A DNA stretch of 64,000 nucleotides from assembly GCA_947474365.1 (NCBI GenBank), contig CANJIU010000044.1, positions 1 to 64,000 on the forward strand, in the 5' to 3' direction. Below the pieces are notes generated by a model. The model did not search any database. It had not been told where the DNA came from and saw only the letters and a program-made list of their open reading frames with translations. The DNA comes from Opitutia bacterium (lineage in GTDB: Bacteria > Verrucomicrobiota > Verrucomicrobiia > Opitutales > Opitutaceae). This document shows, piece after piece, positions 618 through 18,281 of this stretch (the stretch's first letter is position 1; the number at the start of each line of letters is the position of its first letter). The position numbers were made by a program, and so were the translations under genes.

Positions 618-2168
618 ATGATTGCTGTCATTAGTATGTCCACGTCCCCTGCAACGCGTCGGCTGCTCGTCGTCGACGATCCAGTTGCGCTGATGATTTG
701 CGAGACCTCCTTCAAGAAGGCGGGATACGAAGTCGTACGGGCCGGTTCGGCCGCCGCAGCGCGTCGACACTTGGAGGAATTCGGCGTGGAATCGTTTTCC
801 GCAGTGATCAGCGATTTGCGGATGCCCGGCGAGGACGGCTTGTCGCTCATCCATCATCTGCACACGCTCGACGCCGCGATCTCGGCGGTGCTGATGACGG
901 CCGAGGGCGACAAAGCGCTGGTGACCCGGGCGCTCCGGGAAGGAGCGCAGAACTTCGTCGACAAGCCGCTGACCCAAGCCGCGCTGGTCGCCGCCGCGGC
1001 CACCGCCGTTGCCGCGACCACCAAGAACCGCCGGCTGGCGAGCGAAGCGTCGTCGGCCCGGGCGATGGCGGAGACACAGCTCCTCCTGCTGGGCCGGCAG
1101 ACCTCGAAACTCGCCGGCCGCCTGAAGCTGAGCTTCCATCCGCACGCGACTGCCGGCGGGGACTTCGCCGCCGTGTACGAACTCGACGAGCATCGCTTTG
1201 TCATTTTGGTGACGGACGTCTCGGGCCACGATCTCCGCGCAGCGTATCATTCCGCCTATCTGCAAGGCCTGGCCCGAGGCCTCCTGGTCAACGGTGAGGA
1301 CCTTGCGGTCGTCTTTGCCCATCTCAACCGGCTGCTGCTGGAAGAGTGGAACGGCGACGGCCAGATCAACCTGTCCCTTGCCGCCTGCGCGGTGTGCGTC
1401 GATCTCTCCCGTCATCAGGTGCAGGTCCTCAACTGCGGCCTCCCGAGCCCATCGCTCGCCAGTCGGGAGGGCATGGCGGAGCACGCCGGCGCAACGGGGT
1501 CGAGCCCGCTCGGCTGGTTCGACGATCTGCCCCCGGTTGTCATCCGGGATTTCAACCAGGGGCTGCTCCAATTTTGGTCCGATGGCCTGAAAGACCTCGC
1601 CGAACGCCACGGCGTCTCCACCCTGGCGCTGGCCTACCGCCTGCACCAATCCTCCGGCCGGGACGAAGGAGTGCTGAAACTCTCGGCGGACGACGTCATC
1701 GCGACGCGCCTTGATCTTTCCGACCACCCCGGCCGAGGCACGCGATACCCCTTGATGACGGAATCCTATGCCGCCGGTTCGCTGGAGCGGATCGACACCC
1801 TGCAGGACTATTTTGAAAGGAGTCTGCGCATGGCGCTGCCGCAACTCGGAGAGGACACACTCGTCAACACGCTGCTCTGCCTCCGCGAGGGACTGCTCAA
1901 TGCCCTCACCCATGGCTGCAAGCGGCCCGACATCGATCGCGCGACGCTGCAGGTCGCCTACGCACCCGAAACCGAAAGCCTGCACGTCTGCATCGCCGAT
2001 TCCGGACCGGGACACAACTTCGACTACCTCCACCACGAGGAACGTGCCGCCCGCGAACTCGTCACCGAACACCGCGGACTGATCATGATGAAACATCTCA
2101 GCCGCAACCTGCAGGTCTCCACCGGAGGCAGCCGGGTCACCATGGAATTTCCCCTCACGACCACATGA
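618..2168 (+). CDS. HsbR-like response regulator: receiver + PP2C phosphatase + anti-sigma-type kinase
   Basis: The 516-residue cytoplasmic protein has three modules. Residues about 15-125 are a CheY-type receiver with acidic pair D20/D21, phospho-acceptor D66 in ISDLRMPG and K116. A short helical linker leads to a SpoIIE/PP2C phosphatase (about 165-335) with metal-binding Asp in TAGGDF (D182), DVSGH (D200) and SDG (D322). Residues 395-516 form a GHKL ATPase of the RsbW type, with N-box REGLLNALTHG and G-box DSGPG. The same order is known for HsbR of Pseudomonas, which both phosphorylates and dephosphorylates a STAS partner under receiver control. The STAS gene follows with a 4-base overlap. 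An alternative ATG at 636 would remove six residues and also precedes the receiver. It is the first gene of the chemosensory cluster. Confidence 0.88.
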   Translation: MIAVISMSTSPATRRLLVVDDPVALMICETSFKKAGYEVVRAGSAAAARRHLEEFGVESFSAVISDLRMPGEDGLSLIHHLHTLDAAISAVLMTAEGDKALVTRALREGAQNFVDKPLTQAALVAAAATAVAATTKNRRLASEASSARAMAETQLLLLGRQTSKLAGRLKLSFHPHATAGGDFAAVYELDEHRFVILVTDVSGHDLRAAYHSAYLQGLARGLLVNGEDLAVVFAHLNRLLLEEWNGDGQINLSLAACAVCVDLSRHQVQVLNCGLPSPSLASREGMAEHAGATGSSPLGWFDDLPPVVIRDFNQGLLQFWSDGLKDLAERHGVSTLALAYRLHQSSGRDEGVLKLSADDVIATRLDLSDHPGRGTRYPLMTESYAAGSLERIDTLQDYFERSLRMALPQLGEDTLVNTLLCLREGLLNALTHGCKRPDIDRATLQVAYAPETESLHVCIADSGPGHNFDYLHHEERAARELVTEHRGLIMMKHLSRNLQVSTGGSRVTMEFPLTTT

Positions 2169-2506
2169 ACACCAGCGTTGCCTCGCAAATCAGCCGTTAC
2201 GACACCGTCACCTGCGTGGCGCCGGGCGACATCACCACGACCACGGAAAAAGCCTTCGCCGCACTCGTCGAACGCGCCGTCGCAGCTGCGCCCCGCGGTT
2301 GGAAGCGGCTCGATCTCGACATCCGGGCCGCCCGCATGATCGATTCCAAGGGACTCAACCTGCTGGTCTCGCTCGTCAAGTCGTCCCGGGAAAATGAACG
2401 GACCGTCCGGCTGATGGCCCCCCAGCCGTCGGTGCGCCGCATCCTCGCCTTCACGCGCATCGATCAGCACGCGGAAGTCGTGACCGAAGACGGCAGTCCC
2501 GCCTGA
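2165..2506 (+). CDS. STAS-domain anti-anti-sigma-like protein (HsbA/SpoIIAA type)
   Basis: This 113-residue single-domain protein overlaps the upstream HsbR-like gene by ATGA. The STAS signature lies at residues 57-73, with RMIDSKGLNLLVSLV. Ser61 sits where the partner kinase phosphorylates SpoIIAA, RsbV and HsbA. The expected role is a phosphorylation-controlled binding switch, dephosphorylated by the PP2C module and phosphorylated by the GHKL module of its neighbour. The downstream target is not encoded in an obvious way here; candidates are an anti-sigma factor elsewhere or, as for HsbA, a diguanylate cyclase. Function is inferred from family and operon position. Confidence 0.88.
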   Translation: MNTSVASQISRYDTVTCVAPGDITTTTEKAFAALVERAVAAAPRGWKRLDLDIRAARMIDSKGLNLLVSLVKSSRENERTVRLMAPQPSVRRILAFTRIDQHAEVVTEDGSPA

Positions 2507-2522: not shown

Positions 2523-4472
2523 ATGACGTCACTGCGGAACATGTTCATCCTCGGTCTGCGGAAGTTCACCCACCGGGCCGACTGGCGAAAAGCCGCCGTC
2601 GCCGGACCCGATTGGGGGGAACTTTCGGCCCGGACGCGGCTGGAACTTGAACAAGAACTGCCCCGGCTCGAACAACATTTTCTGGCCATCAGCGACCGAC
2701 TTGAGCCCGTCGCGATCCAGACTCAAAGCTTGGTGGGCAAATGCGAGGCGATGCTTCGGCTGGCGGCCGGCATCGACAGTGGAAACGACATTGTCCACCG
2801 GACGCTCGCCCTGCTCCAGGGGCCCCTCACCTACATTGACCGGTGCGTGCAACAGCGGGCCAACCTGCTGAAGCTCCTCGCCGAATGCGAGGCGCAGACC
2901 TTGAGGATGATCGCCGCCCGCGCGCAGATGCAGCACACGTTGGAGCCGCTCACCTACATCGCGGTGCTCTTCAAAATCGAGTCGGCCCGCCTGCCGGCCG
3001 ATCTGCGCGAGGCGTTCGTCACGGTCACAGGGGAAATCGAGCGCATGCGCACGCTGGTGGACGAGTCCGTGGCGCACAACACCGGCTTGCTGCAATCGGC
3101 GCAGGCCACGCTGCACCGCATCCGGGTGAGTCTTGAGCGTGAGTTCACGCGAGTGGCGGAGGATGTCACCGTCCGGCGCCAGAGGATTGAGGACGCGATG
3201 AAGCTGCTCGACACCCAGATGGCGCACAACGCGGCGAGGGATCTCCGGTTGCACAAGCACAGCCAGGAAGTCAGCGCGGAGGTGAGCCGGATTGTCGAGA
3301 AACTCCAGTTCCAGGACATCGTTCACCAAAAGTGCATGCACGTCGTGGAAGCGCTCTCCGACGCCAGCGACTCGCGGGGCGTGAACGCCGCCCTTCAGGC
3401 CGGCCAGCTCGAAGCGGTCGCCGCCGATCTTTCCGCCGGCCAGGAGCGGATTGCCGACGGGCTGCACACGCTCAGCCGAAAAACCCAGGAGTTGGAGGAC
3501 GCTTCGAGCCGGCTGGACGATCTGCAGGGCATGACCGCGGCGTCGGATGGCATCGTGCAATTGCTCCTCGAGACGGTGGGCAATGTGCGCGAAATCACGC
3601 AGGTGGTCGCCGACCTGACCGGCCATACCTATGAGGCGATGGGTCCGCTCGAAGGGCTGGAGAAGAACCTCACCTTCACGCTTTCTGAAGTCGCGGTGAA
3701 CATGAACATCATCGCGCTGAACTCGCAAATCCGGTCCGTCGCGATCAAGTCCGGCACCGGCCTCGAGCAATTGTCGGCTCGCACCGCGCAGATTTCCGCC
3801 GAGGTAAACGCCCTAAGCGACGCCAACACCGAGAATCTCGAACGGTTGGGGGCGGTGATTGCGGAGATGCTGGCGACCTTCAAGGAATTCCGAGAGAGCG
3901 GCACTTCCGAGCTGGCCCGGTTCGACCAGGCCCGGAGTCCCGCCGAGAATGACCTGCACGAAATCCGCGACGCCACTCTCGCCGCATTCCAGACCATCGG
4001 CGCCACCATCGTGAATCTACGCCGGGAAATCGATTCCGCGACTGCGGCTGTCGTTGAACTGGAATCACCCCGCGCCGCCATCGCGGCGGTTGCGGCCGAG
4101 TTGGGCGAATTCCGGTTGGGGCAACCGATGACCCCGGAGGAGATTCGCCAGCTCACGGCGCAGGGCGCGAAGTACACCATGGACTCGGAACGCGTCGTGC
4201 TCGCCCGGATACTCGGTTCATCCTTCGAGGGCGGCCACCAGGACACCGAACTTTTTGGCGGGGAGGCGGCCGCCGCAGTGCCCTCGGCGCCCAACCCCGC
4301 GCCCACCCCTGCGCCCGCCACGAGCGCGCCGGACCTTTTCGAACCGGTCGGCTCCTCGTCGGCGGAGCGCCCGGCGTCCGTCAACGCGAGCGTTGCGTCG
4401 CCGCCCCCCAAGGCCGCACCGAGCCTGCCGCAGGCCGCTGCCGCCATGGGCGGGAATATCGAACTTTTCTGA
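2523..4472 (+). CDS. Soluble coiled-coil protein with a degenerate MCP-like signalling region
   Basis: The 649-residue protein has no signal peptide or membrane segment and is mainly long amphipathic helices. Around residues 395-435 it reads SEVAVNMNIIALNSQIRS, which echoes the MCP hairpin consensus ([21 protein letters not shown]) but lacks the canonical EAARAGE tip. The tail from about residue 570 is a Pro/Ala-rich disordered segment carrying three short acidic-LF motifs: TELF near 575, PDLF near 604 and IELF as the very last residues. It lies between the STAS gene and cheY. It may be a cytoplasmic receptor-like scaffold or a CheY-interacting protein. I do not recognise a named family, so the role is inference from context. 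Confidence 0.75.
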   Translation: MTSLRNMFILGLRKFTHRADWRKAAVAGPDWGELSARTRLELEQELPRLEQHFLAISDRLEPVAIQTQSLVGKCEAMLRLAAGIDSGNDIVHRTLALLQGPLTYIDRCVQQRANLLKLLAECEAQTLRMIAARAQMQHTLEPLTYIAVLFKIESARLPADLREAFVTVTGEIERMRTLVDESVAHNTGLLQSAQATLHRIRVSLEREFTRVAEDVTVRRQRIEDAMKLLDTQMAHNAARDLRLHKHSQEVSAEVSRIVEKLQFQDIVHQKCMHVVEALSDASDSRGVNAALQAGQLEAVAADLSAGQERIADGLHTLSRKTQELEDASSRLDDLQGMTAASDGIVQLLLETVGNVREITQVVADLTGHTYEAMGPLEGLEKNLTFTLSEVAVNMNIIALNSQIRSVAIKSGTGLEQLSARTAQISAEVNALSDANTENLERLGAVIAEMLATFKEFRESGTSELARFDQARSPAENDLHEIRDATLAAFQTIGATIVNLRREIDSATAAVVELESPRAAIAAVAAELGEFRLGQPMTPEEIRQLTAQGAKYTMDSERVVLARILGSSFEGGHQDTELFGGEAAAAVPSAPNPAPTPAPATSAPDLFEPVGSSSAERPASVNASVASPPPKAAPSLPQAAAAMGGNIELF

Positions 4473-4526: not shown

Positions 4527-4919
4527 ATGAAACTTACGATCCTCGCTGTCGATGATGCATTGACCATGCGGAAGCTGGTCTCCTTCACCCTCCGCACCGC
4601 CGGCTTTGATGTCCTGGAAGCCGCCGACGGCGTCGAAGGCCTTGCGATCGTCCGCTCCCGGCCGGTCGATCTCATCATCTCGGATGTGAACATGCCGCGG
4701 ATGGACGGACTGGAGTTCACCCGGCAGGCCCGGGTCGCTCTCGCCGGCAAGCCCGTCCCCATTTTGATCCTCACCACCGAGTCCGACGTGCAAAAGAAAA
4801 CCATCGCGCGCGCCGCGGGCGCGACCGGATGGATCGTGAAGCCCTTTCAACAAGAACAACTGCTGGCAGTCGTGGGGCGCGTTTTACCCGGTTCCGTCAA
4901 CGTCCCCTCCGCCGCATGA
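4527..4919 (+). CDS. cheY: CheY-like single-domain response regulator
   Basis: The 130-residue protein is a stand-alone receiver with acidic pair D9/D10, phospho-acceptor D53 in ISDVNMP, the conserved LTTES segment and K105 in IVKPF. There is no output domain, as in CheY. The first helix is ALTMRKLV, close to the SxTMRR motif of chemotaxis CheYs. Its stop overlaps the start of cheA by ATGA, so CheA is its likely phosphodonor. A second cheY-type gene lies at 12568 in the same cluster. Confidence 0.93.
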   Translation: MKLTILAVDDALTMRKLVSFTLRTAGFDVLEAADGVEGLAIVRSRPVDLIISDVNMPRMDGLEFTRQARVALAGKPVPILILTTESDVQKKTIARAAGATGWIVKPFQQEQLLAVVGRVLPGSVNVPSAA

Positions 4920-7264
4920 GCAACGATCTCCAGCAACAATTCGTCCAGGACATGCTGACGGAGAGCCACGAGGGGCTCGACCGCTACGACGCCGCCATCC
5001 TGCTGCTTGAGAAGGGCAACGCAGGAACCGAACTCATGAACGACGTGTTCCGCGTCGTGCACACGCTGAAGGGCACGGCGGGCTGCCTCGGTTTCCATCA
5101 GGTGGAAAAAATTTCCCACGCTGGCGAGAACCTGCTCGATGCGCTGCGCAACAACCAACTCAGCGTCACGCCCGGAATCACCGCGGGCCTGCTCAAGCTT
5201 TCCGATGCCCTCCGTCGGCTCTTGCAGACGATTCAGGCCACCGGCGGGGACAAGTCAGACTTCGACCTCACCCCCTTGGCGACGGAATTGCACGACTTGC
5301 GGGAGAACCCCAACGCCACGGCCGGCGCGGCCCTTGCCCCGGCGGTCGCCGTCTCGCCCTCCACCGGTTCGGTTCCTGCACCCGGCCCGACCGCGGAGCC
5401 CACCGCGACCGCCCCGGCCGAAGTCGCTCCTTCAACCGCGTGGGGACTTTTCGACGACACTCCCGCAACTCCCACCACTCCACCCAACGTGTCCATTCCC
5501 ACTCCGTCCGTAATCGCAGCTCCCTCACCTGCGGTTGCCGCCTCCGCCGAAGCCACCCAGCAACCGGCGGCGACCGCCAATGGTTCTCCCGGAACCGCGA
5601 ACGCCACCGTCCGGGTCGACATCGGCCTGCTCGACAAATTGATGAACCTCGTCGGCGAACTGGTGCTTTCCCGCAACCAGCTCATGCAAATCGCCCAGAG
5701 CAAGCACCTGACCCGCGAGGCGGTGAACGAGGTTTCGCAGTGTCTGAATCTCGTCACGACCGAGCTGCAGGAAGGCGTCATGAAGACCCGGATGCAGCCG
5801 ATCGGCAACGTCTGGGGCAAGTTCCCCCGGATCGTACGTGACATCGCCCATGAACTCGGCAAGAGCGTGCGGCTGGAAACAATCGGCGCCGAGACGGAGC
5901 TCGACCGCACCATCATCGAATCGATCCGCGACCCGCTGACCCATATCATCCGCAACTCGATCGACCACGGCATCGAATCGCCGGAGCGCCGTCTCGCCGC
6001 GGGTAAACCGGCGGAGGGCCACATCCTGATGCGCGCCTATCACGAAGGCGGCCAGGTCAACATCGAGATCATCGACGACGGAGCCGGCATCAACCTCGCC
6101 CGCGTCCGCCAGAAGGCCGGGGAAAAAGGACTGCTCTCCGCCGAGGACGCCTCGCGGCTTTCCGAGCGCGAGATCCTCAACCTCATTTTTCTGCCCGGAT
6201 TTTCAACCGCGGAAAAAATCACCAACGTCTCCGGCCGCGGCGTCGGGATGGATGTGGTCAAGACCAACATCGAAAAAATCGGCGGATCGGTCGACCTGCA
6301 CAGCACGGCCGGCCAGGGCACCACGCTCAAAATCAAAATCCCCCTCACCCTGGCGATCGTGCCCGCGCTGATCATCCGCGCCGGCGGGGAGCGCTTCGCG
6401 ATTCCGCAGGTCAGCCTCCTCGAACTCGTGCGCATCGAGGGCAAGGCGGCGATCTCCGCGATTGAAAACGTTTATGGCGCCCCAGTGTTCCGACTGCGCG
6501 GCCATCTCCTCCCGCTGGTCTTTCTCCATCGGGAACTGCAGCTCCCGGCTCCACCGGAAACCGCCGAGCCGGTCTACAACATCGTCGTCCTTCAGGCCGA
6601 CCAGCGCCAGTTCGGACTCGTCGTCGATCAGGTCTGCGACTCCGAGGAAATCGTCGTCAAGCCGCTGGGCAAGCACCTCAAGGGCCTGCCGATGTTTGCC
6701 GGCGCCACGATCATGGGCGACGGCCGCGTGGCCCTGATCCTCGACGCCCTGGGCCTGGCGCAGAGGGCCCGCATTGTCAGCGAGGGCCAGGAACGGAAGG
6801 GAATCGTCAACCACAATTCCGCCGCCGCCAATGAAGTGGGCGAACGCACGCAACTGCTGCTATTCTCCATCAAGGGCCGGGAGCACCTGGCTTTGCCGCT
6901 CGACCAGGCCGCCCGACTGGAGGAATTTTCCGTCAACAAGATCGAGCTCTCGGGTGCCCGGGAAGCCGTCCAATACCGCGGTCGTATCATGCCGCTGGTT
7001 CGGCTGTCCCGCCACCTTCCCGGCGCGGCCCAAGGCGGCTCCGGCGAGAACGCCCAGCTCCAGGTGATTGTGTATCAGCGCGCCGGACACGCCGTCGGCA
7101 TCGTGGTCGACCAGATTCGCGACATCATCGACGATCGCCTCGAAATCCAGCCCGGCTCCGCCTCCCCCGGCATCCTCGGCTCCGCCGTCGTGCAGGGCCG
7201 CATCACCGACCTCGTCGACGTGTCGGGCGTGCTGCGCTCGGCCGGCATCCCGCTCGCCGCCTGA
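4916..7264 (+). CDS. cheA: Chemotaxis histidine kinase CheA, no evident P2, two CheW-like modules
   Basis: CheA autophosphorylates in receptor arrays and donates to CheY and CheB. The 782-residue protein starts at the ATG overlapping the cheY stop; a longer in-frame extension lies inside cheY and is rejected. The Hpt domain has the phospho-His49 in VVHTLKGTAG. Residues about 115-230 are a Pro/Ala/Thr-rich linker in place of a folded P2, with one WGLFDD motif near residue 174. The P3 dimerisation helices, then the GHKL ATPase (N-box HIIRNSIDHG near 343, G-boxes IIDDGAGIN and GRGVGMDVV), follow. The P5 CheW-like domain begins near 467. A second CheW-like domain (about 643-782) is appended after a short linker, which most CheAs lack. 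The cheW gene follows after 5 bases. Confidence 0.95.
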   Translation: MSNDLQQQFVQDMLTESHEGLDRYDAAILLLEKGNAGTELMNDVFRVVHTLKGTAGCLGFHQVEKISHAGENLLDALRNNQLSVTPGITAGLLKLSDALRRLLQTIQATGGDKSDFDLTPLATELHDLRENPNATAGAALAPAVAVSPSTGSVPAPGPTAEPTATAPAEVAPSTAWGLFDDTPATPTTPPNVSIPTPSVIAAPSPAVAASAEATQQPAATANGSPGTANATVRVDIGLLDKLMNLVGELVLSRNQLMQIAQSKHLTREAVNEVSQCLNLVTTELQEGVMKTRMQPIGNVWGKFPRIVRDIAHELGKSVRLETIGAETELDRTIIESIRDPLTHIIRNSIDHGIESPERRLAAGKPAEGHILMRAYHEGGQVNIEIIDDGAGINLARVRQKAGEKGLLSAEDASRLSEREILNLIFLPGFSTAEKITNVSGRGVGMDVVKTNIEKIGGSVDLHSTAGQGTTLKIKIPLTLAIVPALIIRAGGERFAIPQVSLLELVRIEGKAAISAIENVYGAPVFRLRGHLLPLVFLHRELQLPAPPETAEPVYNIVVLQADQRQFGLVVDQVCDSEEIVVKPLGKHLKGLPMFAGATIMGDGRVALILDALGLAQRARIVSEGQERKGIVNHNSAAANEVGERTQLLLFSIKGREHLALPLDQAARLEEFSVNKIELSGAREAVQYRGRIMPLVRLSRHLPGAAQGGSGENAQLQVIVYQRAGHAVGIVVDQIRDIIDDRLEIQPGSASPGILGSAVVQGRITDLVDVSGVLRSAGIPLAA

Positions 7265-7269
7265 TCCCT

Positions 7270-7710
7270 GTGAATACTCCCACCCAATATTGCACCTTTC
7301 ACGTCGCCGGGCTCTTCCTCGGCATCGACGTGCTCTCCGTTCAGGAGGTTTTGCGGGCCAGCCCCCTCTCCCGTGTCCCGCTCGCCCCGCCCACCGTCGA
7401 GGGCCTGCTCAATCTCCGCGGCCAGATTGTCACCACGATCGACCTCCGTCGCCGTCTCGGATTTGCCCCCCGCGCCGCCGACGCCGAACCGATGTTCATG
7501 ATCGTCCGGACCGCCGACGGCCATGTGTCCCTCCTCGTCGATTCCGTCGGCGACGTCCTCGAACTGACCGATGAAACGTTGGAGCACCCACCCGAGACCC
7601 TGCCACCCGCGACCCGCTCGCTGATTCGCGGTGTGCACAAACTGCCCAAACAGCTCCTCCACCTCCTTGACCCCGAGCAGGCCACCGCGTTGGCGGCCCA
7701 CGCCGCCTAG
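7270..7710 (+). CDS. cheW: Chemotaxis adaptor CheW
   Basis: This 146-residue single CheW domain couples receptors to CheA. It shows the usual strand pattern with [13 protein letters not shown] near the N-terminus and the receptor-binding [18 protein letters not shown] motif at about residues 41-58. The start is GTG at 7270, five bases after the cheA stop, and it leads straight into the first beta strand. The next gene is a receptor, so CheA, CheW and receptor form a contiguous signalling unit. Confidence 0.93.
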
Positions 7711-7739: not shown

Positions 7740-9812
7740 ATGATTGGTCCCGCTATGAATTCACCCGCCGGCATTTCAATTTTCGAGCAAATCGGCGGAG
7801 CGCCCGCCGTCGAAGCGACTGTCGCGGAGTTCTACCGCCGCGTCCTCGTCGACCCCGAGTTGAAGCCGTTTTTCGCCAAGACCAAGCTGAACTGGCTGGT
7901 GAAGAGCCAGGTGCGCTTTTTCACCCAGGCGCTCGGCGGCCCCGCGATCTACAAGGGCAAGGACATGAAGTCCGCGCACGCGCAATTGCCGATCGAACGC
8001 AAACATTTTGGCCAGGTCGCCCAACACCTGTCCGACACACTCGAGTCCCTCGGTGTGCCTCCCCCGCTGGTCGGCCAGATCATGAAGACCGTCGGTTCCC
8101 TCGCTCCCCAAATTGTCAACACGCCCGATTCCCCGTCCTCCTCCCAAATGAACACGCTTACCTCCCGTCTGCCCGTCGCTCGCAATGGTTCGGGCCGTTC
8201 CCCCAAGTCCGCCGCCAGCGCGCCCGTCGTCTCCCACGAGGAGCTCGCCGACCTCCGCGGCCAAATCGCCGCGATCTCTAAGGCCCAGGCCGTGATCGAG
8301 TTCAACCTCGACGGCACCGTCATCACCGCCAACGAAAACTTCCTCAAGACCCTCGGGTACACCCTTGACGAAATCAAGGGCCAGCACCACTCGATGTTCG
8401 TCGAGCCCGCCTACCGCGAGTCGGCGGAATACAAGCAGTTCTGGCGTGACCTGGGGGCCGGCAAGTACCAGGCCGCCGAATACAAACGGATCGGCAAGGG
8501 CGGCCGCGAGGTCTGGATCCAGGCCTCCTACAATCCCATCTTCGATCTCAACGGCCGTCCGTTCAAGGTGGTCAAGTTCGCCACCGACGTCACCGCGGCG
8601 GTGAACCAGCGGATCATCAATGTCCGCTACGCCTCGATGATGGAACAGGCACCGATCAACGTGATGTTCGCCGATCGCGAACTTAACATCATCTACATGA
8701 ATCCGGCGTCGCTGAAGACGTTGAAGACCTTCGAGCAGCATCTCTCGATCCGGGCCGACCAGGTGCTCGGCAAGAATGTCGACCTGTTCCACAAGAACCC
8801 CGCCCACCAGCGCCGCCTGCTCGGCGACCCGCGGAATTTGCCGCACCGCGCCAACATTGCGGTTGGGCCCGAGACGCTCGACCTCCTCGCCAGTGCGATT
8901 TACGACAACGACAAGAACTACCTCGGCACGATGGTGACCTGGGAAAAAATCACCGAACGTCTGGCCACCGAGAAACGCGAACGCGAGATGACCACCAGCC
9001 TCAAGGGCACGCTCGAGGCCGTGAGCAACAACGCCATCACGCTCGCCTCCTCCTCCGAGGAACTGTCCGCGACCGCACAGACGATGAGTTCGAACTCCGA
9101 GGAGACTTCGGCCCAGTCCAACGTCGCCGCCGCCGCCGCCGAACAGGTGAGTAAAAACGTCACCACGGTTGCCACCAGCGCCGAGGAGATGAGCGCCTCC
9201 GTCAAAGAGATCGCCAAGAACGCCGCCGAAGCCGCCCGCGTCGGCACCGCCGCCGTCAAGGTTGCCAATGACACCAACGCCACCGTCGCCAAGCTCGGCG
9301 AAAGCAGCACGGAAATTGGCAAGGTCATCAAGGTCATCACCTCGATCGCCCAGCAGACCAACCTGCTCGCCCTCAACGCCACCATCGAGGCGGCGCGGGC
9401 CGGTGAAGCCGGCAAGGGCTTCGCGGTCGTCGCCAACGAGGTCAAGGAGCTGGCCAAGCAGACCGCCGCCGCCACCGAGGATATCTCGGGCAAGATCGAG
9501 GCCATCCAGGGCGACACCAAGGGCGCCGTCACCGCGATTGCCGAAATCTCGAAGATCATCACGCGCATCAACGACATTCAAAACACGATCGCCAGCGCGG
9601 TGGAGGAACAGTCCGCCACGACCAACGAGATCGCCCGCAACGCCTCCGAGGCGGCAAAGGGCGCCAACGAAATCACCAAGAACATCACGAATGTCTCGCA
9701 GGCCGCCCGCAGCACGTCGCAGGGCGCGTCCGCAACGCTCACCGCCTCGGCCGAACTTGCCAAACTGTCGGCCGAACTGAAGAAGATCGTCGACTCGGCG
9801 AAGCTGAAGTAA
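7740..9812 (+). CDS. Soluble chemoreceptor with N-terminal truncated hemoglobin: trHb-PAS-PAS-MCP
   Basis: Residues 13-128 match group I truncated (2/2) hemoglobins: SIFEQIGG, then [15 protein letters not shown] with B10 Tyr32, SQVRFF with E11 Gln57, ALGGP, and the proximal His80 in MKSAH followed by a helix containing HFGQVAQHL. The B10 Tyr/E11 Gln pair is the distal ligand set of Mycobacterium trHbN. Two PAS domains follow (about 180-295 and 300-400). An MCP signalling domain then carries the tip [19 protein letters not shown]. No transmembrane segment is present, so it is a cytosolic receptor. Haem binding to O2, NO or CO is the likely input. Known globin-coupled receptors such as HemAT use 3/3 globins, so this fusion is unusual. 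An alternative ATG at 7755 also precedes the globin fold. Confidence 0.92.
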
Positions 9813-9823
9813 TCACTCGAATG

Positions 9824-9853
9824 GCGGGCGCGACCCATTGCGGTCGCGCCCGC
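9824..9853 (+). terminator. Perfect 12-bp GC-rich stem-loop after the globin receptor gene
   Basis: GCGGGCGCGACC (9824-9835) pairs perfectly with GGTCGCGCCCGC (9842-9853) across a 6-base loop, 11 bases after the receptor stop. There is no T-run, so it is either a partial or factor-assisted terminator, or an RNA processing/stability hairpin that sets lower expression of the downstream genes. It also argues that the next gene starts at 9884 and not at the in-frame ATG at 9821, which lies at the base of the stem. Confidence 0.55.
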
Positions 9854-9883
9854 GTCCCTCCTCTCAATCCCACCCACTCCCCC

Positions 9884-10666
9884 ATGGTCACCCCCGCTTC
9901 CCTCGTCCTCGACCAACTGAACTCTTCGCGCTCCAGCCTGGATCTCGACGAGCAGTCCATCAACCCGCGGGAGCTCTCGCTCTCCACCTTGATGAGGGAG
10001 CTCAACCTGCAGAACCGGCCCTCCTGGCTGCTCTGCCGGCTCATGAACATCCTTGAGCAAAAGCGGCAGGCTCAGGGCCTCGGCTGGTCCCGGCCCTGGA
10101 ACAAGACCGGCCTGACGGTTTTCCGCACCCATACGCAAAAGGTGGCGGACGATGTGGATTACTTCGCCCCGGTGTTTGCCGTGCTCGCCCGGCTGCTGCC
10201 CCACGCGCCCATCGCCTACCAGGCGTTCGCCGCCGAACTGCTCGCCGATCCCACGCTCATGGCGTTCACCTTCTATCACAATCGCCAGACCGAGGGAGCC
10301 CAGTACGAGGGCCTCACGCTCTCGCTCGGCCGCAAGGTCACGGGGGACACGTCCAAACGGGATCGCCTCGATCTCATTCTCGAGGACCAGCGCGACGGCG
10401 GCCGGGTCGACGGCACTGTTGACCTGCTCCGACTCTACGTCTGCCCCTGGTCGGAATACCAGGACGGTCGCCGCCATCATCTGCTTGAAGCGCGCGAGTT
10501 CTCCGCCGAGGATCGAGCCGATGTTCAGGCTCTCTACGAAAATTGCGTCGCGGCGTACCACATTTGGAAGAACGACGACCGCCGCCAATGGAGTCATTGG
10601 TCAGCCAACTACATCGACTACTTCGGTTCGCGGTCCTTCATCCCCATCGGCACTGCGTTCCACTGA
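9884..10666 (+). CDS. Uncharacterised cytoplasmic protein of the chemosensory cluster
   Basis: This 260-residue soluble protein has no signal peptide, no membrane segment and no family I recognise. It begins MVTPASLVLDQLNSSRSSLD, is rich in Arg, Asp and Leu, and ends FGSRSFIPIGTAFH. Trp and Tyr residues concentrate in the C-terminal third (CPWSEYQDG, AYHIWKNDD, WSHWSANYIDYFG), which suggests a folded alpha/beta or beta-rich domain and not a coiled coil. The ATG at 9884 was chosen because the stem-loop at 9824-9853 covers the earlier in-frame ATG. The 81-residue protein and the UbiB-like kinase follow after 15 bases, so the three probably form a sub-operon. Function is unknown. Confidence 0.75.
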   Translation: MVTPASLVLDQLNSSRSSLDLDEQSINPRELSLSTLMRELNLQNRPSWLLCRLMNILEQKRQAQGLGWSRPWNKTGLTVFRTHTQKVADDVDYFAPVFAVLARLLPHAPIAYQAFAAELLADPTLMAFTFYHNRQTEGAQYEGLTLSLGRKVTGDTSKRDRLDLILEDQRDGGRVDGTVDLLRLYVCPWSEYQDGRRHHLLEAREFSAEDRADVQALYENCVAAYHIWKNDDRRQWSHWSANYIDYFGSRSFIPIGTAFH

Positions 10667-10681
10667 GGCGTCCTCCGCACC

Positions 10682-10927
10682 GTGAGTGCGACCGCCCTCT
10701 GCATTCAGGTGACCGAACGCGGAGAGAACCGCGTTCGAATCACCTTCGACGCCGCCGCCACGGACAACCTGCCGGATCTGATCCCGCCTGACGTCCTGCC
10801 CAAGCTGGCCGCCCGCAACATCGACGCCGCGCGGATCGCGGTGGAAGCACGGGAGCGAAACTACGCACCCGCCGAACTTTTTGTCCTCCAGGAAGGCGAA
10901 CGCACGCTCCGCGTCTGGCTCGAGTGA
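10682..10927 (+). CDS. Small protein homologous to the C-terminal tail of the adjacent UbiB-like kinase
   Basis: This 81-residue protein starts at GTG and overlaps the next gene by GTGA. Nearly its whole length aligns with the last ~78 residues of the UbiB-like kinase that follows. Shared features are an initial beta hairpin (LCIQV versus LHIDV), the LIP turn, a D-A-R-helix-AR segment, YAPAELF versus YAPQELF, and terminal RVWLE versus RIWIE. It looks like a free-standing copy of an accessory domain. It could bind the same partner as the kinase tail, or dimerise with it. No known domain name is recognised. Function is unknown, but the pairing is directly visible in the sequence. Confidence 0.75.
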   Translation: MSATALCIQVTERGENRVRITFDAAATDNLPDLIPPDVLPKLAARNIDAARIAVEARERNYAPAELFVLQEGERTLRVWLE

Positions 10928-12501
10928 ACGACGCCACCATGCCCGCCCCGTCGTCCCAAAATTCGGCGCCGACGAGTCGGCGTTCGTCGCTCCTCCGTCC
11001 CTTCCAGCTCGCCCGACTCGCCACCGTCTCGCTCGGTGCCCGGCTCTCCACGCACCCGGCCCGCCGCGAGCGCGCCCTGCAACGGGTGGTCGCCCAGATG
11101 GCCAGGATGCATGGTCTGCCGCAGAAGATCGGCCAGATCCTCGCCTCGGCGGAGCTCGACGGCGACGCGACCCACTTTGCCTCGCTCACCGCCCACCGCG
11201 CGTCGGCCCTGCCCGCCGCCGAGGCCCGGCGAATCGTGGCCGCTCACCTCGGTCGCCCCCTCGAAGAGGTTTTCTCCGAATTCAATCCGATCGGAATTGC
11301 CGCCTCGATCGGTCAGGTCCACCGCGCGCGCCTGCGTGACGGGCGCGAGGTGGCGGTCAAATTTCAGCATCCCGGCATCGCTGCAACGCTCGGAGCCGAC
11401 CTCCGCGCCTTGGGATGGCTTGTGACACCGCTCGGGAATCTGCGCCGTGATTTTGATCTGGCCGGCTATCGCGCCGAACTCGGCGAGCGCCTCGCGGCCG
11501 AACTCGATTATGAACGGGAGTCCGCTGCAATCCGGGAGTTTGCCGCCCAGCGCGGGGGCGCCCCGGACGTGCTCTTGCCCGAGTGTTGCGAGGAACTCCG
11601 CCGGCCCGGGCTCCTGGTGATGACCTGGGTCGACGGGGCAGACATCGAGACAGCACGCCGCTGGAGCACGGACGTTCGCCAACCGCTGGCCCGCTGCCTG
11701 GTCCGACTCTTCCTCGAGGGCGCGCTGCGCGACCGCCTGCTGCACGCCGACCCGCATCCCGGCAATTATCGCTTTCTCGCGCAAGGTCCGGCTGGAGCTC
11801 CGGCGGTCGGCTTACTCGACTTCGGCTCGATGCATTCGCTCCGGCCGGAGGAATCCACCGCCATCGCGGCGGTGATCACCGCCGCGCGTACCGGAGCAAT
11901 CGACGAGGCGTTCGCGTGGCAGTTTCACCTCGCGTTTGGCTACGACCCGACGGCGCTGGCGCCGCTGCGCACGCTGTTGCCAGCAGTGCTGCGGGAATTG
12001 CTCCGGCCCGTCGCGGATCCGGGTGACTTTTCCGTGTCGGACTGGGCACCAGGCGAGTCGCTGGCGGCCCTGCTCGGGCCGCACCGGATCGCCTATCGGG
12101 TGGCGGCACCGCCCTCGTTCCTCTTCCTCATTCGCGCCTGGCACGGCCTGGTGCACTACCTGCGCGCGTTGGCCTGTCCAGTGGACTGGTCCGGCCTGGC
12201 GGCACCGCTCCTGCCCGCCTCCGCCCCCATCGCCCCAGTGGAGGCACCCCGCCCCACTCCGGGCACCGTGCTTCACATCGACGTGCGGCAGGACGACCGG
12301 GAGCTGGTCCGCCTGCAATTGCCGGGCCGTTCCGCCGCGTCGCTCGCCTCGTTGATCCCACTCGAACACCGGGCGCGCCTCGACGCGCGGGGCTTCGATC
12401 CCGCCCGCCTTTCCGCCCGCGCACGGGAAACTGGATACGCCCCGCAGGAGTTGTTCCGCCTCAGCGAAGCGGGGCGGACGGTGCGAATCTGGATCGAATA
12501 G
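10924..12501 (+). CDS. UbiB/ABC1 (AarF)-family atypical kinase with an extra C-terminal domain
   Basis: The 525-residue protein carries the UbiB-family signatures: the KxGQ motif (K68-Q71 in LPQKIGQ), an Ala-rich nucleotide loop GIAASIGQVH instead of a Gly-rich loop, the ATP-binding Lys146 in VAVKFQHPG, the ExD-type segment ELDYERES, the catalytic HADPHPGN (274-281) and LLDFGSM with the metal-binding Asp299. Family members support ubiquinone or lipid metabolism and are ATPases/atypical kinases. The C-terminus lacks the two membrane helices of canonical UbiB. Instead it has a ~78-residue domain that matches the 81-residue protein encoded immediately upstream. The start is GTG at 10924, with an ATG at 10939 as alternative. 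Its position inside a chemotaxis cluster is unexpected; a signalling or modifying role there is inference. Confidence 0.88.
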   Translation: MNDATMPAPSSQNSAPTSRRSSLLRPFQLARLATVSLGARLSTHPARRERALQRVVAQMARMHGLPQKIGQILASAELDGDATHFASLTAHRASALPAAEARRIVAAHLGRPLEEVFSEFNPIGIAASIGQVHRARLRDGREVAVKFQHPGIAATLGADLRALGWLVTPLGNLRRDFDLAGYRAELGERLAAELDYERESAAIREFAAQRGGAPDVLLPECCEELRRPGLLVMTWVDGADIETARRWSTDVRQPLARCLVRLFLEGALRDRLLHADPHPGNYRFLAQGPAGAPAVGLLDFGSMHSLRPEESTAIAAVITAARTGAIDEAFAWQFHLAFGYDPTALAPLRTLLPAVLRELLRPVADPGDFSVSDWAPGESLAALLGPHRIAYRVAAPPSFLFLIRAWHGLVHYLRALACPVDWSGLAAPLLPASAPIAPVEAPRPTPGTVLHIDVRQDDRELVRLQLPGRSAASLASLIPLEHRARLDARGFDPARLSARARETGYAPQELFRLSEAGRTVRIWIE

Positions 12502-12567
12502 CAAGATTCTCCACAAGCCGGGGCGGGTTTGTGCCGTAGAGGATGCCGTCACCTCTTTGTTTTCACC

Positions 12568-12936
12568 ATGCGCCTTCTCATCGTTGACGACTCCAAGACC
12601 ATGCGGTCGATCCTTTCGGCCTACGCCCGGCAACTCGCCTGCGAGACCGTCGAAGCCGAGGACGGCCGCCTCGCCCTGGATCGCCTGGAACACGATTCCG
12701 ATTTCGACGCCGTTCTCATCGACTGGGACATGCCGAACATGAACGGCCTTGAGTTGCTGAAGGAGATCCGTGGCAATCCCCAGTTTGACGGGATCAAGGC
12801 GATGATGGTCACATCGCAAAGCTCGTTCGACCGGGTTTCCCAGGCCCTGACGATCGGGGCCGACGACTACCTGATGAAACCGCTCGATGAGGCGATGCTG
12901 GCCGACAAGCTCCGCCTCCTCGGACTGCTCAATTGA
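12568..12936 (+). CDS. cheY: Second CheY-like response regulator
   Basis: The 122-residue stand-alone receiver has an acidic pair in LLIVDDSKTMR, phospho-acceptor D52 in LIDWDMP, VTSQSS and a conserved Lys in YLMKPL. The SKTMR motif after the acidic pair is typical of CheY and CheY-like partners of CheA. ATG 12568 was chosen because it lies directly before the first strand; the in-frame upstream extension has no homologous content. It is followed by the double-receiver protein after 5 bases. Two CheYs served by one CheA suggest either two outputs or one acting as a phosphate sink. Confidence 0.92.
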   Translation: MRLLIVDDSKTMRSILSAYARQLACETVEAEDGRLALDRLEHDSDFDAVLIDWDMPNMNGLELLKEIRGNPQFDGIKAMMVTSQSSFDRVSQALTIGADDYLMKPLDEAMLADKLRLLGLLN

Positions 12937-12941
12937 CCGCC

Positions 12942-13745
12942 ATGCCCCGAATCCGCGCCCTGGTGGTGGACGATGCCACGTTCATGCGGCGCCTGCTCAC
13001 GGAAGTGTTGCAGACCGACGCCGTCATCGAGGTCGTGGGATCGGCCCACGACGGGGAGGCGGCGCTGCACGCAATTCGGACCCTGCGTCCCGACGTCGTC
13101 ACGTTCGACCTCGAGATGCCGGGACTGGACGGACTCGCCGCGCTCGCACGGATCAGCACCCAGTGGCCGCGTTTGCCCGTGATCGTCGTATCCGGAGCAG
13201 ACCTTCACGGGAGTCGCATCGCCCAACTGGCCGTCGCCGCCGGCGCGGCCGATTATGTGACCAAGCCGTCCGGCCAAACCGGCATCGGGGAAGCCTTTGC
13301 CTACTTCCGCACGACGCTGGTGCCCCGTATCCACCAACTCACCGCCGCCGTCCAGCACCGCCATGTCCTCGTCGCCGACGACGGGTCAGTCAACCGGGCC
13401 ATTCTCCGCCGGATGCTACAATCGCTCCATTGCACCGTGGTCGAGGCGAGCGATGGCGAAGAAGCGGTGGCGAGAGCGAGGGCCACCTCCCCCGAGCTGA
13501 TCTTCATGGACTCTGAAATGCCCCGGGTCCCGGGATGCGAAGCGACCCGGCAAATCCGCCGGCGGGAATCCGAAACGCAGAGTCGCAGCTTCATCGTCGG
13601 AATTTCCGCGGCCGACAGCGCGGAGGTCCGGACCGCCTGCCTTTCTTCCGGCATGGACGATTTCATGTTCAAGCCATTCCAGTTGAATTTTGTCCGCCTG
13701 ATGGTGAACCGGTGTTCAACCCACCCCATGTCCGCTGTCGCCTGA
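12942..13745 (+). CDS. Double-receiver response regulator derived from CheB (REC-REC, no esterase)
   Basis: The 267-residue protein starts at ATG 12942; a TTG at 12933 that overlaps the preceding cheY is less likely. Receiver 1 (1-125) has D56 in TFDLEMPG and K109 in YVTKPSG and is closely similar to the receiver of the following cheB: MPRIRALVVDDATFMRRLL against MPKLRALVVDDAVVMRRLL. The CheB linker sequence LVPRIH is still recognisable near 130. Where cheB continues into a methylesterase, this gene continues into a second receiver (about 140-262) with D190 in IFMDSEMP and a Lys in MFKPF. It looks like a cheB duplicate whose effector was replaced. It may compete with CheB for CheA phosphate or act as a phosphorelay or sink; this is inference. 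Confidence 0.87.
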   Translation: MPRIRALVVDDATFMRRLLTEVLQTDAVIEVVGSAHDGEAALHAIRTLRPDVVTFDLEMPGLDGLAALARISTQWPRLPVIVVSGADLHGSRIAQLAVAAGAADYVTKPSGQTGIGEAFAYFRTTLVPRIHQLTAAVQHRHVLVADDGSVNRAILRRMLQSLHCTVVEASDGEEAVARARATSPELIFMDSEMPRVPGCEATRQIRRRESETQSRSFIVGISAADSAEVRTACLSSGMDDFMFKPFQLNFVRLMVNRCSTHPMSAVA

Positions 13746-13750
13746 CCACC

Positions 13751-14827
13751 ATGCCAAAACTTCGTGCCCTGGTCGTTGATGATGCCGTGGTGATGCGGCG
13801 GCTGCTCACCGAAGTCCTGCAACGCGATCCCCAGATCGAGGTGGTCGGCACCGCGCCGAATGGTCGCATCGCGCTGCAGAAGATCCCGCAGATCAATCCC
13901 GACTTTCTCACCCTCGACGTGGAGATGCCGGAGCTCGATGGCCTGCAAACGCTGCGGGAACTCCGCCTCACCTACCCGAAGCTCCCGGTGATCATGCTTT
14001 CGCTGCTCACCAAACGGGGCGCCGCCTCGACGCTCGACGCCCTCGCGGCCGGGGCCAACGACTACGTCACCAAGCCGGCCGACTCGTCGAATCTCGCCGA
14101 GAGCATCGCCCGGCTCGAGGCCGAGTTGTTGCCGAAAATTCACGCGCATTTCCCGACCCCGGTCTTTTCGGCTCCGGTCGCTCCGCCCCCGATGGCAAAG
14201 CGAAGGATCGAAAGCTTTGTCAGTGGCTCGAAGCCCATTGAGTTGGTCTGTATCGCCACCTCGACCGGTGGCCCGAACGCGCTCTCTGATCTCTTCCAGG
14301 GCTTCACCACTCCCATCCCCGTGCCAGTCGTCATCGTGCAGCACATGCCGCCCATGTTCACCCAGATGCTGGCGGATCGGCTCGACGCCCAGAAGGGCCC
14401 GCTCCGCTGCCGGGAGGCCGTCGAAGGCGAAATCCTGACTCCGGGTTGTGCCTACATCGCCCCCGGGGGCTCGCACCTTTCCGTGACCCGGATCGCGACC
14501 GGCCAATTCGTTTCCCACCTGCTCGACTCGCCGCCGGAAAACTCCTGCCGGCCGGCCGCCGATGTGCTCTTCCGCTCCGCCGCCGCGACCGGCGCGCACC
14601 TCCTCGCCGTCGTCATGACGGGCATGGGGCAGGACGGCCTCCGGGGTTGCGTCAATATCAGCGAACGGCAGGGCCAGATCATTGTGCAAGATCAGGCCAC
14701 GTCGGTCGTGTGGGGCATGCCCGGCGCCGTCGCCGAAGCCGGTCTCGCCCAAGCCATCATCCCACTCCACGCGATCGCTCCCGAAATCACCCGGCGGATC
14801 GGCGCCCACAGCCTCCTCGCCGTATGA
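13751..14827 (+). CDS. cheB: CheB, chemoreceptor glutamate methylesterase/deamidase
   Basis: The 358-residue protein has a receiver domain (D10/D11, phospho-acceptor D56 in LDVEMP, K108 in YVTKPAD), a Pro-rich linker and the CheB esterase. The catalytic triad is visible: Ser171 in ATSTGGP, His198 in VQHMPP and Asp295 in MTGMGQDG. It removes methyl groups from receptor glutamates when phosphorylated by CheA, providing adaptation together with the CheR that overlaps its stop by ATGA. The start is ATG 13751, directly before the first beta strand; a longer in-frame extension lies within the preceding gene and is rejected. Confidence 0.95.
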   Translation: MPKLRALVVDDAVVMRRLLTEVLQRDPQIEVVGTAPNGRIALQKIPQINPDFLTLDVEMPELDGLQTLRELRLTYPKLPVIMLSLLTKRGAASTLDALAAGANDYVTKPADSSNLAESIARLEAELLPKIHAHFPTPVFSAPVAPPPMAKRRIESFVSGSKPIELVCIATSTGGPNALSDLFQGFTTPIPVPVVIVQHMPPMFTQMLADRLDAQKGPLRCREAVEGEILTPGCAYIAPGGSHLSVTRIATGQFVSHLLDSPPENSCRPAADVLFRSAAATGAHLLAVVMTGMGQDGLRGCVNISERQGQIIVQDQATSVVWGMPGAVAEAGLAQAIIPLHAIAPEITRRIGAHSLLAV

Positions 14828-15654
14828 CGACCGATCTCCAACTCGCCCCGCTCGGTCTCGATAATTTCCGGTTCATCCGGGATTTGCTCCAGCGGGAAGC
14901 CGCGATCGTCATCGAATCCGGCAAGGAATATCTGGTCGAGACCCGCCTCGCCCGGGTCGCCACCCGCAATGGCTATGCCAGTGTCAACGCCCTGATCGAA
15001 CAGATGCGGTTCGGCACGGGCATCCATCCGAACCTCATCTCAGAGACGGTGGACGCGCTCACCACCAACGAGACGCTGTTTTTCCGGGACGCCAATCCGT
15101 TTGACGCCCTCCGGGACCAGATCATCCCTGAGTTTTGCGCCAAACGGCCCGGCGCGACGTTGAATATCTGGTCCGCCGCATCCTCCACCGGTCAGGAGGC
15201 GTACAGCATCGCGATGCTCCTGGCCGAGCATTTTCCCAATCTGTCCACTCGGATCGTCGGCACGGACCTTTCTCCCACGGTCATCGCCCGCGCGCGGGCC
15301 GGCCTGTATCAGCAAATCGAGGTCAACCGCGGCCTGCCGGCCAAACTTCTGATCAAGTATTTCCGCCAGGACGGCACGAATTGGCAGATCGCCGATTCGA
15401 TCCGGCAACGAGTGGAATTTCGGGAGATGAACCTGATTCGCCCGTGGCCCGTGCTCCCAAGCTGTCACGTGGTGCTGATCCGCAATGTGATGATCTATTT
15501 CGACATTGAAACGCGCCGGCAGATCCTGCGCCAGCTCCGCCAGGTCCTCGCCCCCGGCGGCTACCTCGGCCTGGGCGGAGCGGAAACCACCGTGACCGTC
15601 GACCCGGCCTTCGTCCCGGTGCCGGTCGGCCGCGCCACGTTCTACCAATTGTAG
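14824..15654 (+). CDS. cheR: CheR, chemoreceptor glutamate methyltransferase
   Basis: This 276-residue S-adenosylmethionine-dependent methyltransferase has the all-alpha N-terminal domain, ending in the signature TTNETLFFRD at about residues 80-89. The SAM-binding loop follows as IWSAASSTGQEAYSIAM (115-131), with GTDLS and the RNVMIYFD motif further on. It methylates receptor glutamates and opposes CheB. There is no C-terminal TPR extension. It starts inside the cheB stop by ATGA overlap and is the last gene of the cluster. The globin receptor has no C-terminal NWETF-type tether, so CheR would have to act without it. Confidence 0.95.
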   Translation: MTTDLQLAPLGLDNFRFIRDLLQREAAIVIESGKEYLVETRLARVATRNGYASVNALIEQMRFGTGIHPNLISETVDALTTNETLFFRDANPFDALRDQIIPEFCAKRPGATLNIWSAASSTGQEAYSIAMLLAEHFPNLSTRIVGTDLSPTVIARARAGLYQQIEVNRGLPAKLLIKYFRQDGTNWQIADSIRQRVEFREMNLIRPWPVLPSCHVVLIRNVMIYFDIETRRQILRQLRQVLAPGGYLGLGGAETTVTVDPAFVPVPVGRATFYQL

Positions 15655-18168: not shown

Positions 18169-18281
18169 CCATCGAATCTTATCTGGCGCCATGATTTTTC
18201 CGCCGGGACCACACGCGAAAAATTAACCGATTCTTCGTCATCCGTTCATCATTCGTTAACATTTTCAGGGTAGGCTTGGGA

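Follow-up and report, generated by a model that had tools for sequence, protein, structure and literature searches.

A predicted two-heme chemoreceptor with a truncated hemoglobin and an Aer2-type PAS domain in a che cluster of an Opitutia bacterium

Introduction

What does a truncated hemoglobin contribute when it stands at the N terminus of a soluble chemoreceptor, and which output does such a receptor control? The question is raised by one gene in the window, the 64,000-nucleotide stretch of Opitutia bacterium DNA analyzed here. The original prediction described its product as a chemoreceptor with a group I truncated hemoglobin (trHb), two PAS domains, and an MCP tip, and read it as a cytosolic O2/NO receptor that had evolved apart from HemAT. 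Much of this reading stands: the receptor is soluble, its globin is of the 2/2 type, unlike Protoglobin, and its own CheA and CheW are adjacent; the view of the globin as the gas sensor, however, is incomplete.

Results

Domain organization of the receptor

The receptor, its domains, and the surrounding genes are listed in Table 1. The Pfam scan placed Bac_globin (PF01152) at residues 13 to 126 (1.2e-22), PAS at residues 183 to 287 (PAS_4 at 4.9e-15 and others), and MCPsignal at residues 498 to 654 (2e-32), all above cutoff; the second PAS domain is marked by PAS_8 at residues 296 to 329 (3.9e-7, 30.2 bits versus a cutoff of 21.8), and HAMP found no match in the receptor. Hydropathy averaged over 19 residues peaks at 0.98, too low for a membrane helix to be expected; the Pfam matches and the hydropathy bear out the predicted layout, in which paired PAS domains and an MCP tip are combined in a protein with no membrane helices. 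An artifact of assembly or frameshift was considered and rejected, since the receptor of locus L001 matches residues 2 to 689 (70% in the best segment) and that of L010 matches residues 1 to 690 (72%). In the whole genome, eight MCPsignal matches were found at E ≤ 0.001, and the one Bac_globin match is the window receptor. Residues 1 to 413, excluding the MCP part, were modeled with AlphaFold2 from 58 aligned sequences drawn from the window and from fetched loci, with a mean pLDDT of 88.5 and a pTM of 0.54.

Table 1. Features of the receptor gene and of the cluster around it (positions in the window)
Feature	Position	Strand	Details
Receiver-SpoIIE phosphatase-HATPase regulator, CrsR/HsbR-like architecture	618..2168	+	PF00072, PF07228, PF13581
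STAS protein, anti-sigma antagonist type	2165..2506	+	PF01740 1.5e-9
P0002, divergent MCP-like coiled-coil protein	2523..4472	+	649 aa; tip-like motif near residue 395
CheY-like receiver 1	4527..4919	+	PF00072 4.6e-26; overlaps open frame of CheA
CheA (Hpt, dimerization, ATPase, CheW-like)	4829..7264	+	Pfam; one of two CheA in genome
CheW	7270..7710	+	PF01584 1.1e-29
trHb-PAS-PAS-MCP receptor gene	7740..9812	+	690 aa, ATG start; no membrane helix expected
Group I truncated hemoglobin domain	7776..8117	+	Residues 13-126; PF01152, own-genome search, PDB sequence and fold matches
Tether between globin and PAS1	8130..8234	+	Residues 131-165, low confidence, probably disordered; Met137 in frame at 8148-8150
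PAS1	8286..8600	+	Residues 183-287; nearest solved relatives MmoS, Aer
PAS2, predicted Aer2-type heme PAS	8622..8972	+	Residues 295-411; His351 at 8790-8792, Trp401 at 8940-8942
MCP signaling domain	9231..9701	+	Residues 498-654, tip motif from residue 541
P0003, conserved orphan protein	9884..10666	+	Open frame from 9821
ABC1/UbiB-type atypical kinase	10924..12501	+	PF03109 3.3e-51; UbiB model matched below cutoff
CheY-like receiver 2	12529..12936	+	PF00072 8.5e-26
Receiver-CheB methylesterase	13535..14827	+	PF00072, PF01339
CheR methyltransferase	14863..15654	+	PF03705, PF01739; open frame from 14446, domains begin about 14863

The profile search scores the N-terminal domain as a globin, and the best PDB sequence matches of residues 1 to 131 are group I trHbs (1dly, 6.5e-25; 1idr, 2.1e-24). 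The modeled globin superposes on 1idr (trHbN) with 0.7 Å over 115 columns (Foldseek; the range was assigned by length and identity), and no match to Protoglobin (PF11563) was found in the receptor at E ≤ 0.001. Tyr32, Gln57, and His80, whose helix labels we take to be B10, E11, and F8, align with like residues of 1idr; the positions named in the original prediction are confirmed, and Pfam, PDB sequence matches, and the modeled fold agree on the group. In the alignment of the 13 receptor globins, the B10 Tyr and the E11 Gln are each kept in 11 and the F8 His in 12; the globin of L034 lacks the B10 Tyr and E11 Gln, and that of L148 lacks all three residues. The Trp of the heme PAS domain is likewise absent from L148, indicating that heme sites can be lost.

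Predicted heme site in the second PAS domain

Both PAS domains are present as predicted, but the Aer2 heme type of the second had been missed. The nearest PDB relatives of PAS1 are MmoS (3ewk) and Aer (8dik), whose PAS domains bind FAD. For residues 295 to 410, by comparison, the only matches at E ≤ 0.001 among 177,635 distinct PDB sequences are 6ceq (VcAer2) and 4hi4 and 3vol (PaAer2); the modeled domain superposes on 6ceq with 1.3 Å over 105 columns and on 3vol with 1.7 Å over 125 columns (Foldseek; assigned by length and identity). Among NCBIfam models, Vibrio Aer2 gives the top hit, over residues 282 to 413, while the whole receptor scores 173.8 bits with the NCBIfam Aer2 model NF041847, below its cutoff of 1200, and thus falls outside Aer2 as a whole protein. 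His351 aligns with His234 of Aer2, and Trp401 with the O2-stabilizing Trp of Aer2, presumably residue 283. In Aer2 of Pseudomonas aeruginosa, heme is coordinated by H234, according to the part of that study drawn on here (PMC13401364), and a second account, also used in part, describes a His and a Trp conserved in Aer2 of three species, with the Trp stabilizing O2 (PMC9855816).

We identified 24 copies of the heme PAS domain in the 13 receptors; all 24 retain the His and 23 retain the Trp, the exception being L148. In 16 of the copies the His is built in, because they seeded the profile through the HKxP pattern; the eight nonseed copies (one each in L021, L014, L199, and L148 and two each in L196 and L197) all keep it. 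By sequence, PAS2 is predicted to be an Aer2-type heme PAS domain with both key residues, His351 and Trp401, which makes the protein a predicted two-heme receptor; since PAS2 is of this type, the globin may be an auxiliary site rather than the gas sensor proper.

Tether between the globin and the PAS domains

In the model, helix 285 to 301 joins PAS1 to PAS2, and a further helix, which starts at residue 405, leaves PAS2 toward the MCP part, whereas pLDDT falls below 50 at residues 136 to 154, within a tether of about 35 residues that the model suggests is probably disordered. The PAS pair is therefore placed for in-line signaling and the globin is not. A linker of 34 to 60 residues, mostly polar, separates the globin from the first PAS domain in 12 of the 13 trHb receptors; L148 has a GAF domain there.

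An in-frame Met is found in all 13 tethers (the chance product is 4e-4 under independence, but the 13 are not independent). A Shine-Dalgarno-like site (duplex energy of -7.9 or lower) stands ahead of this Met in eight of the 13 receptors; the window gene has no such site ahead of Met137 or ahead of its own start. Linker ATGs exceed other internal ATGs in Shine-Dalgarno strength (P = 4e-5, with the list excluding the linker ATG of the window). Under a synonymous-codon null, the combined P value of the tether sites is 0.097, with P < 0.05 only in the related genes L021, L030, and L196; the amino acid sequence accounts for the greater part of the signal, and a functional internal start argued from Shine-Dalgarno strength was retained only as a lead.

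One pair of relatives differs by the globin. L001, which has the trHb, and L002, which has no globin, are sisters on the tree of the heme PAS and MCP domains (support, 100/98), and their upstream ORFs are 70% identical over 371 nucleotides, with the alignment running through the stop codon. The trHb is cleanly absent in L002, whose protein begins with MKAT, the four residues found at the tether Met of L001. Because the pair falls into a six-row tree group with the window, L010, and L197 (all with trHb) and L012 (without), loss of the trHb is the likelier direction in L002, as far as this group can tell.

Distribution and origin of the fused globins

A scan of genome contigs gave 258 relatives, and the best 80 were taken further; among these 80, the receptor ORF contains a trHb in eight loci (L001, L010, L014, L021, L030, L034, L038, and L060). 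An alignment of nine fused globins was the query for whole-genome searches in five phyla, which added L148, L196, L197, and L199. Fusions of trHb and MCP occur in 2 of 387 genomes in the window's own phylum and in 2 of 245, 2 of 343, and 1 of 247 genomes in the phyla of the L030, L020, and L014 genomes, respectively; the phylum of the L034 genome has at least 1 in 235 among the matches listed, where part of the long frames was checked. In the other four phyla, every match in an open frame of more than 400 aa was checked for an MCP domain. The five phyla together hold such fusions in at least 8 of 1,457 genomes, four of which (those of the window, L014, L030, and L034) had themselves supplied rows of the query alignment; that trHbs are usually free-standing, as originally stated, holds as a tendency.

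The same heme PAS and MCP chassis also carries a 3/3 globin (PF00042) in L032 (3486-6218, +) and L043 (7032-9878, +), which are a parallel solution, and the globin-less L012 matches HAMP and, weakly and below cutoff, dCache_1. The tree of the last heme PAS domain and the MCP domain comprises 36 rows, 12 with trHb, 2 with a 3/3 globin, and 22 with neither; L014 was removed by the row filter. Receptors that have the trHb are mixed on this tree with receptors that lack it, indicating that the trHb is patchy on the chassis.

The globin tree (123 rows, 116 columns) has free-standing rows sampled by their similarity to the fused ones, which limits its power to test for a single origin. Nine of the 13 receptor globins, together with the free copy of L010, form one clade, whose support of 90/83 does not reach the starred level. 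Its members come from records that bear the titles Verrucomicrobia, Opitutus, Nitrospirales, Acidobacteria, and Eisenbacteria, which are names of metagenome bins and may be loose; the globins of L199, L148, L034, and L038 lie outside this clade, on long branches or open forks. A single clade of all receptor globins, a group named after the tree had been seen, is not rejected (AU P = 0.168). On the sequences at hand, the simplest reading would be a single main fusion that spread between phyla and was sometimes lost, although the receptor globins may descend from more than one fusion.

Several related trHb arrangements were met on the way. A free-standing trHb gene lies directly upstream of the trHb receptor in L010 (7674-8366, +); it is sister to the globin of that receptor on the globin tree (100/91) and is a duplicated globin domain. 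In L048, a free-standing, diverged trHb-like ORF (7884-8396, +; Bac_globin, 2.7e-8) directly precedes a globin-less PAS-MCP frame (8444-10306). Proteins of 480 to 682 aa with two or three tandem trHbs are encoded in L202 (97-2142, +), L203 (1201-3003, +), and L208 (2100-3539, -), from genomes that belong to the phylum of the L034 genome; L110 (775-1857) has two trHb domains, and a 982-aa protein in L198 (2428-5373, -) combines a trHb with a C-terminal response regulator receiver and has no MCP match.

Gene cluster and second CheA

The cluster runs in the order receiver-SpoIIE-HATPase (receiver-PP2C-kinase), STAS, P0002, CheY-like, CheA, CheW, receptor, P0003, ABC1, CheY-like, receiver-CheB, and CheR, so that CheA and CheW lie directly upstream of the receptor; judged from this position, the receptor is likely wired to them. 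P0002 has no Pfam family over cutoff, but it aligns with MCP (hhalign score, 55.5; probability, 90) well above six decoys (≤21.5), and relatives of it occur in 13 loci among the best 80 of the 258 relatives; with its degenerate MCP tip, it is perhaps an array organizer or a decoy receptor. P0003 has relatives in six fetched loci (51 to 62% identical) with several invariant Trp and Arg residues; it has no Pfam or NCBIfam match, and its model (mean pLDDT, 70.7) has no PDB fold match at E ≤ 0.001. Farther downstream, the window encodes a multicopper oxidase with Ig-like and glucodextranase-B domains (18276-21287, +), with no evident link to the receptor.

Parts of this arrangement recur elsewhere. 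L010 retains P0002, CheY, CheA, CheW, receptor, P0003, and ABC1; L001 has the same genes, but with ABC1 before P0003, and in both a single small ORF lies between CheW and the receptor. L197 has the same cluster core with P0002 unmatched and with divergent receiver-SpoIIE and STAS genes. The nearest upstream che gene is CheW in 9 of the 12 related trHb loci (L001, L010, L014, L021, L030, L148, L196, L197, and L199) and CheA in L034; in L060 the trHb receptor stands ahead of CheA, with a globin-less receptor after CheW, and the contig of L038 is too short for this count. The window, L001, L010, L197, and the globin-less L002 all have an ABC1 relative close to the receptor. Strong relatives of the receiver-SpoIIE protein were found in at least six loci among the best 80 of 258 (L011, L028, L040, L009, L047, and L046), none of which has a trHb receptor. 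Beyond the window, L197 is the only locus seen to have both, although several trHb loci have flanks of insufficient length to show or exclude the gene; since L197 alone among the loci with strong relatives has a trHb receptor, the gene appears tied to the che cluster of the lineage and not to the trHb.

The receiver-PP2C-kinase and STAS genes beside the che genes amount to a CrsR/CrsA-type gene set. CrsR and HsbR share the receiver-PP2C-kinase architecture (PMC6482189, in the part drawn on), and the che1 locus of Shewanella contains CrsR/CrsA together with an Aer2 receptor, as the relevant part of a second source states (PMC9855816); because the pair in the window matches CrsR/CrsA, analogy makes a nonflagellar output through a partner-switch regulator plausible. 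The second of the two CheA genes of the genome lies on contig C84, which carries relatives of CheW, CheB, and CheR together with FliF, FliG, FliM, FlhA, and FlhB. As the genome estimate includes 7.44% contamination, C84 could be foreign; its tetranucleotide profile correlates with that of the window at r = 0.984, as the window's own halves do with each other.

Discussion

We put at slightly better than even, roughly 55%, the reading of the protein as a soluble receptor for O2, and possibly NO, with two different heme sites, in which PAS2 is the in-line sensor, the trHb a tuner, and a partner switch the target of CheA. PAS2 would bind heme b through His351 and hold O2 with the help of Trp401, and its signal would pass in line through the MCP tip to the adjacent CheW and CheA, as in Aer2. 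The trHb, with Tyr B10 and Gln E11, would be a second module for gas binding, in a position unsuited to pushing through a rigid helix; most likely it would tune the signal, whether by binding O2/NO itself inside the receptor dimer or by consuming NO locally. CheA would phosphorylate the two CheY-like proteins, the receiver-PP2C-kinase protein, or both, the STAS partner of the latter would set a partner switch for stress or lifestyle control, and the other CheA of the genome would serve the flagellum. Weighing against this reading are the key residues lost in L148, the lack of a HAMP match where PaAer2 relays its signal through HAMP domains, the receiver-PP2C-kinase relatives in loci that have no trHb receptor, and the chance that C84 is foreign.

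The intact pocket residues of the trHb and its HemAT-like N-terminal position could also mean that O2 is sensed primarily by the globin, whose signal the PAS domains only relay. We think this unlikely, given that the model has a low-confidence tether in place of a rigid helix, that linkers vary in length among relatives, that 12 of 13 receptors retain the key residues of PAS2 (the Trp is missing from L148), and that globin-less relatives retain the PAS-MCP chassis. The trHb might instead be an enzyme, a guard with NO dioxygenase-like activity that keeps NO off the PAS heme, and no sensor at all; trHbN of Mycobacterium tuberculosis is known for NO dioxygenase activity and has the same Tyr B10 and Gln E11, and placement on a tether would suit such a role, but the cluster ORFs scanned include no dedicated reductase, and we give this possibility little credence. 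A redox or energy sensor, in which PAS1 would bind FAD as in Aer and set the output with the heme sites secondary or empty, fits the nearness of PAS1 to MmoS and Aer; it becomes quite improbable in view of the residue at the position of Aer Arg57 (numbering presumed), which is not Arg in PAS1, and of the absence of a PAS1-type domain from 4 of the 13 receptors (L060, L034, L199, and L148), all 13 of which have the Aer2-type PAS domain.

On the output side, an ordinary flagellar aerotaxis receptor, which would signal only to flagellar motors via CheY-like proteins, deserves a hearing as a minority view: two CheY-like genes are present in the cluster and flagellar genes exist in the genome, yet a separate CheA, with CheW, CheB, and CheR relatives, sits among those flagellar genes, and the receptor cluster has the receiver-PP2C-kinase and STAS genes. 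An extension of the two-heme reading is a long shot. In it, the trHb would be a removable cassette on the receptor and the tether Met the start of a short PAS-MCP protein, so that one gene would yield long and short receptors whose ratio sets the O2/NO range of a chemosensory system steering a partner switch and not a flagellum. With the combined P value given above and no site in the window gene, two receptors from one gene are a lead and not a result.

The trHb and the Aer2-type PAS domain would place two heme folds in one protein, and the division of labor between them is therefore testable by point mutations. Truncated hemoglobins, whose role is often unclear, would gain a defined signaling job from such a receptor, and nature offers a series on one chassis, with trHb, with a 3/3 globin (L032 and L043), and with no globin, for direct comparison.

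Comparison with known systems

Aer2 of P. aeruginosa, Vibrio cholerae, and Shewanella resembles the window receptor in the sequence and fold of PAS2 and in its key His and Trp, and both are soluble MCPs; Aer2 of Shewanella, in the part of its account drawn on, is tied to a second Che system with CrsR/CrsA, like the window cluster. The portions of the Aer2 literature used here describe no globin in Aer2 and five HAMP domains that carry the signal in PaAer2 (PMC13401364), whereas the window receptor has a globin, no HAMP match, and a score far below the NCBIfam Aer2 cutoff. HemAT and other globin-coupled sensors likewise place an N-terminal globin on a soluble MCP, but HemAT has a Protoglobin-type domain, and the window receptor has a 2/2 group I globin, PAS domains, and a flexible tether. 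With trHbN (1idr), the window globin shares its fold, Tyr B10, Gln E11, and His F8, although trHbN is free-standing and the window globin is tethered to a receptor. BdlA and McpS of P. aeruginosa also combine two PAS domains with an MCP; in the part of the account consulted, no globin is named and the PAS domains are predicted to bind FAD (PMC8694187).

A claim to a novel domain architecture was rejected, since the same combination was published in 2018: Sharma, Parales, and Singer reported seven receptors of the Bac_globin-PAS-MCPsignal kind among 8,075 complete genomes, one of the seven in a che cluster very similar to that of the window (PMC6194562, as far as the part drawn on goes). The window receptor joins this group, having the three domains, no membrane helix, and a CheA-CheW-MCP-...-CheB-CheR cluster with ABC1; in the open-licence literature, Bac_globin and MCPsignal were met together only in that study. 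By description, the closest counterpart is Cc_4972 of Corallococcus coralloides (the Cc-5/ECSS4 cluster), likewise a cytosolic Bac_globin-PAS-MCPsignal receptor after CheA-CheW, with ABC1, CheB, and CheR in the same order as in the window (same source and part). Its cluster has an ABM gene after ABC1 and no CheY found nearby, according to that part of PMC6194562; unlike it, the window has P0003 before ABC1, a CheY-like gene after it, and P0002, STAS, and receiver-PP2C-kinase genes upstream, and no ABM gene was matched beside ABC1 in the window ORFs scanned, where the CheY-like gene stands instead. The same part of the 2018 study reports no ABC1 or ABM homologs in the other clusters mapped (PMC6194562); since the window, L001, L010, L197, and L002 have ABC1 relatives close to the receptor, the link is wider than that study saw. 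Its account of Cc_4972, in the part used, names neither the globin group nor an Aer2-type PAS domain (PMC6194562), and in the open-licence literature, as far as the portions drawn on extend, no statement was met that the PAS domain of these receptors is Aer2-type. Over the 2018 description, the present analysis adds the assignment of the globin to group I, a last PAS domain of the predicted Aer2 heme type, a trHb that is removable and tethered, and the partner-switch pair in the cluster.
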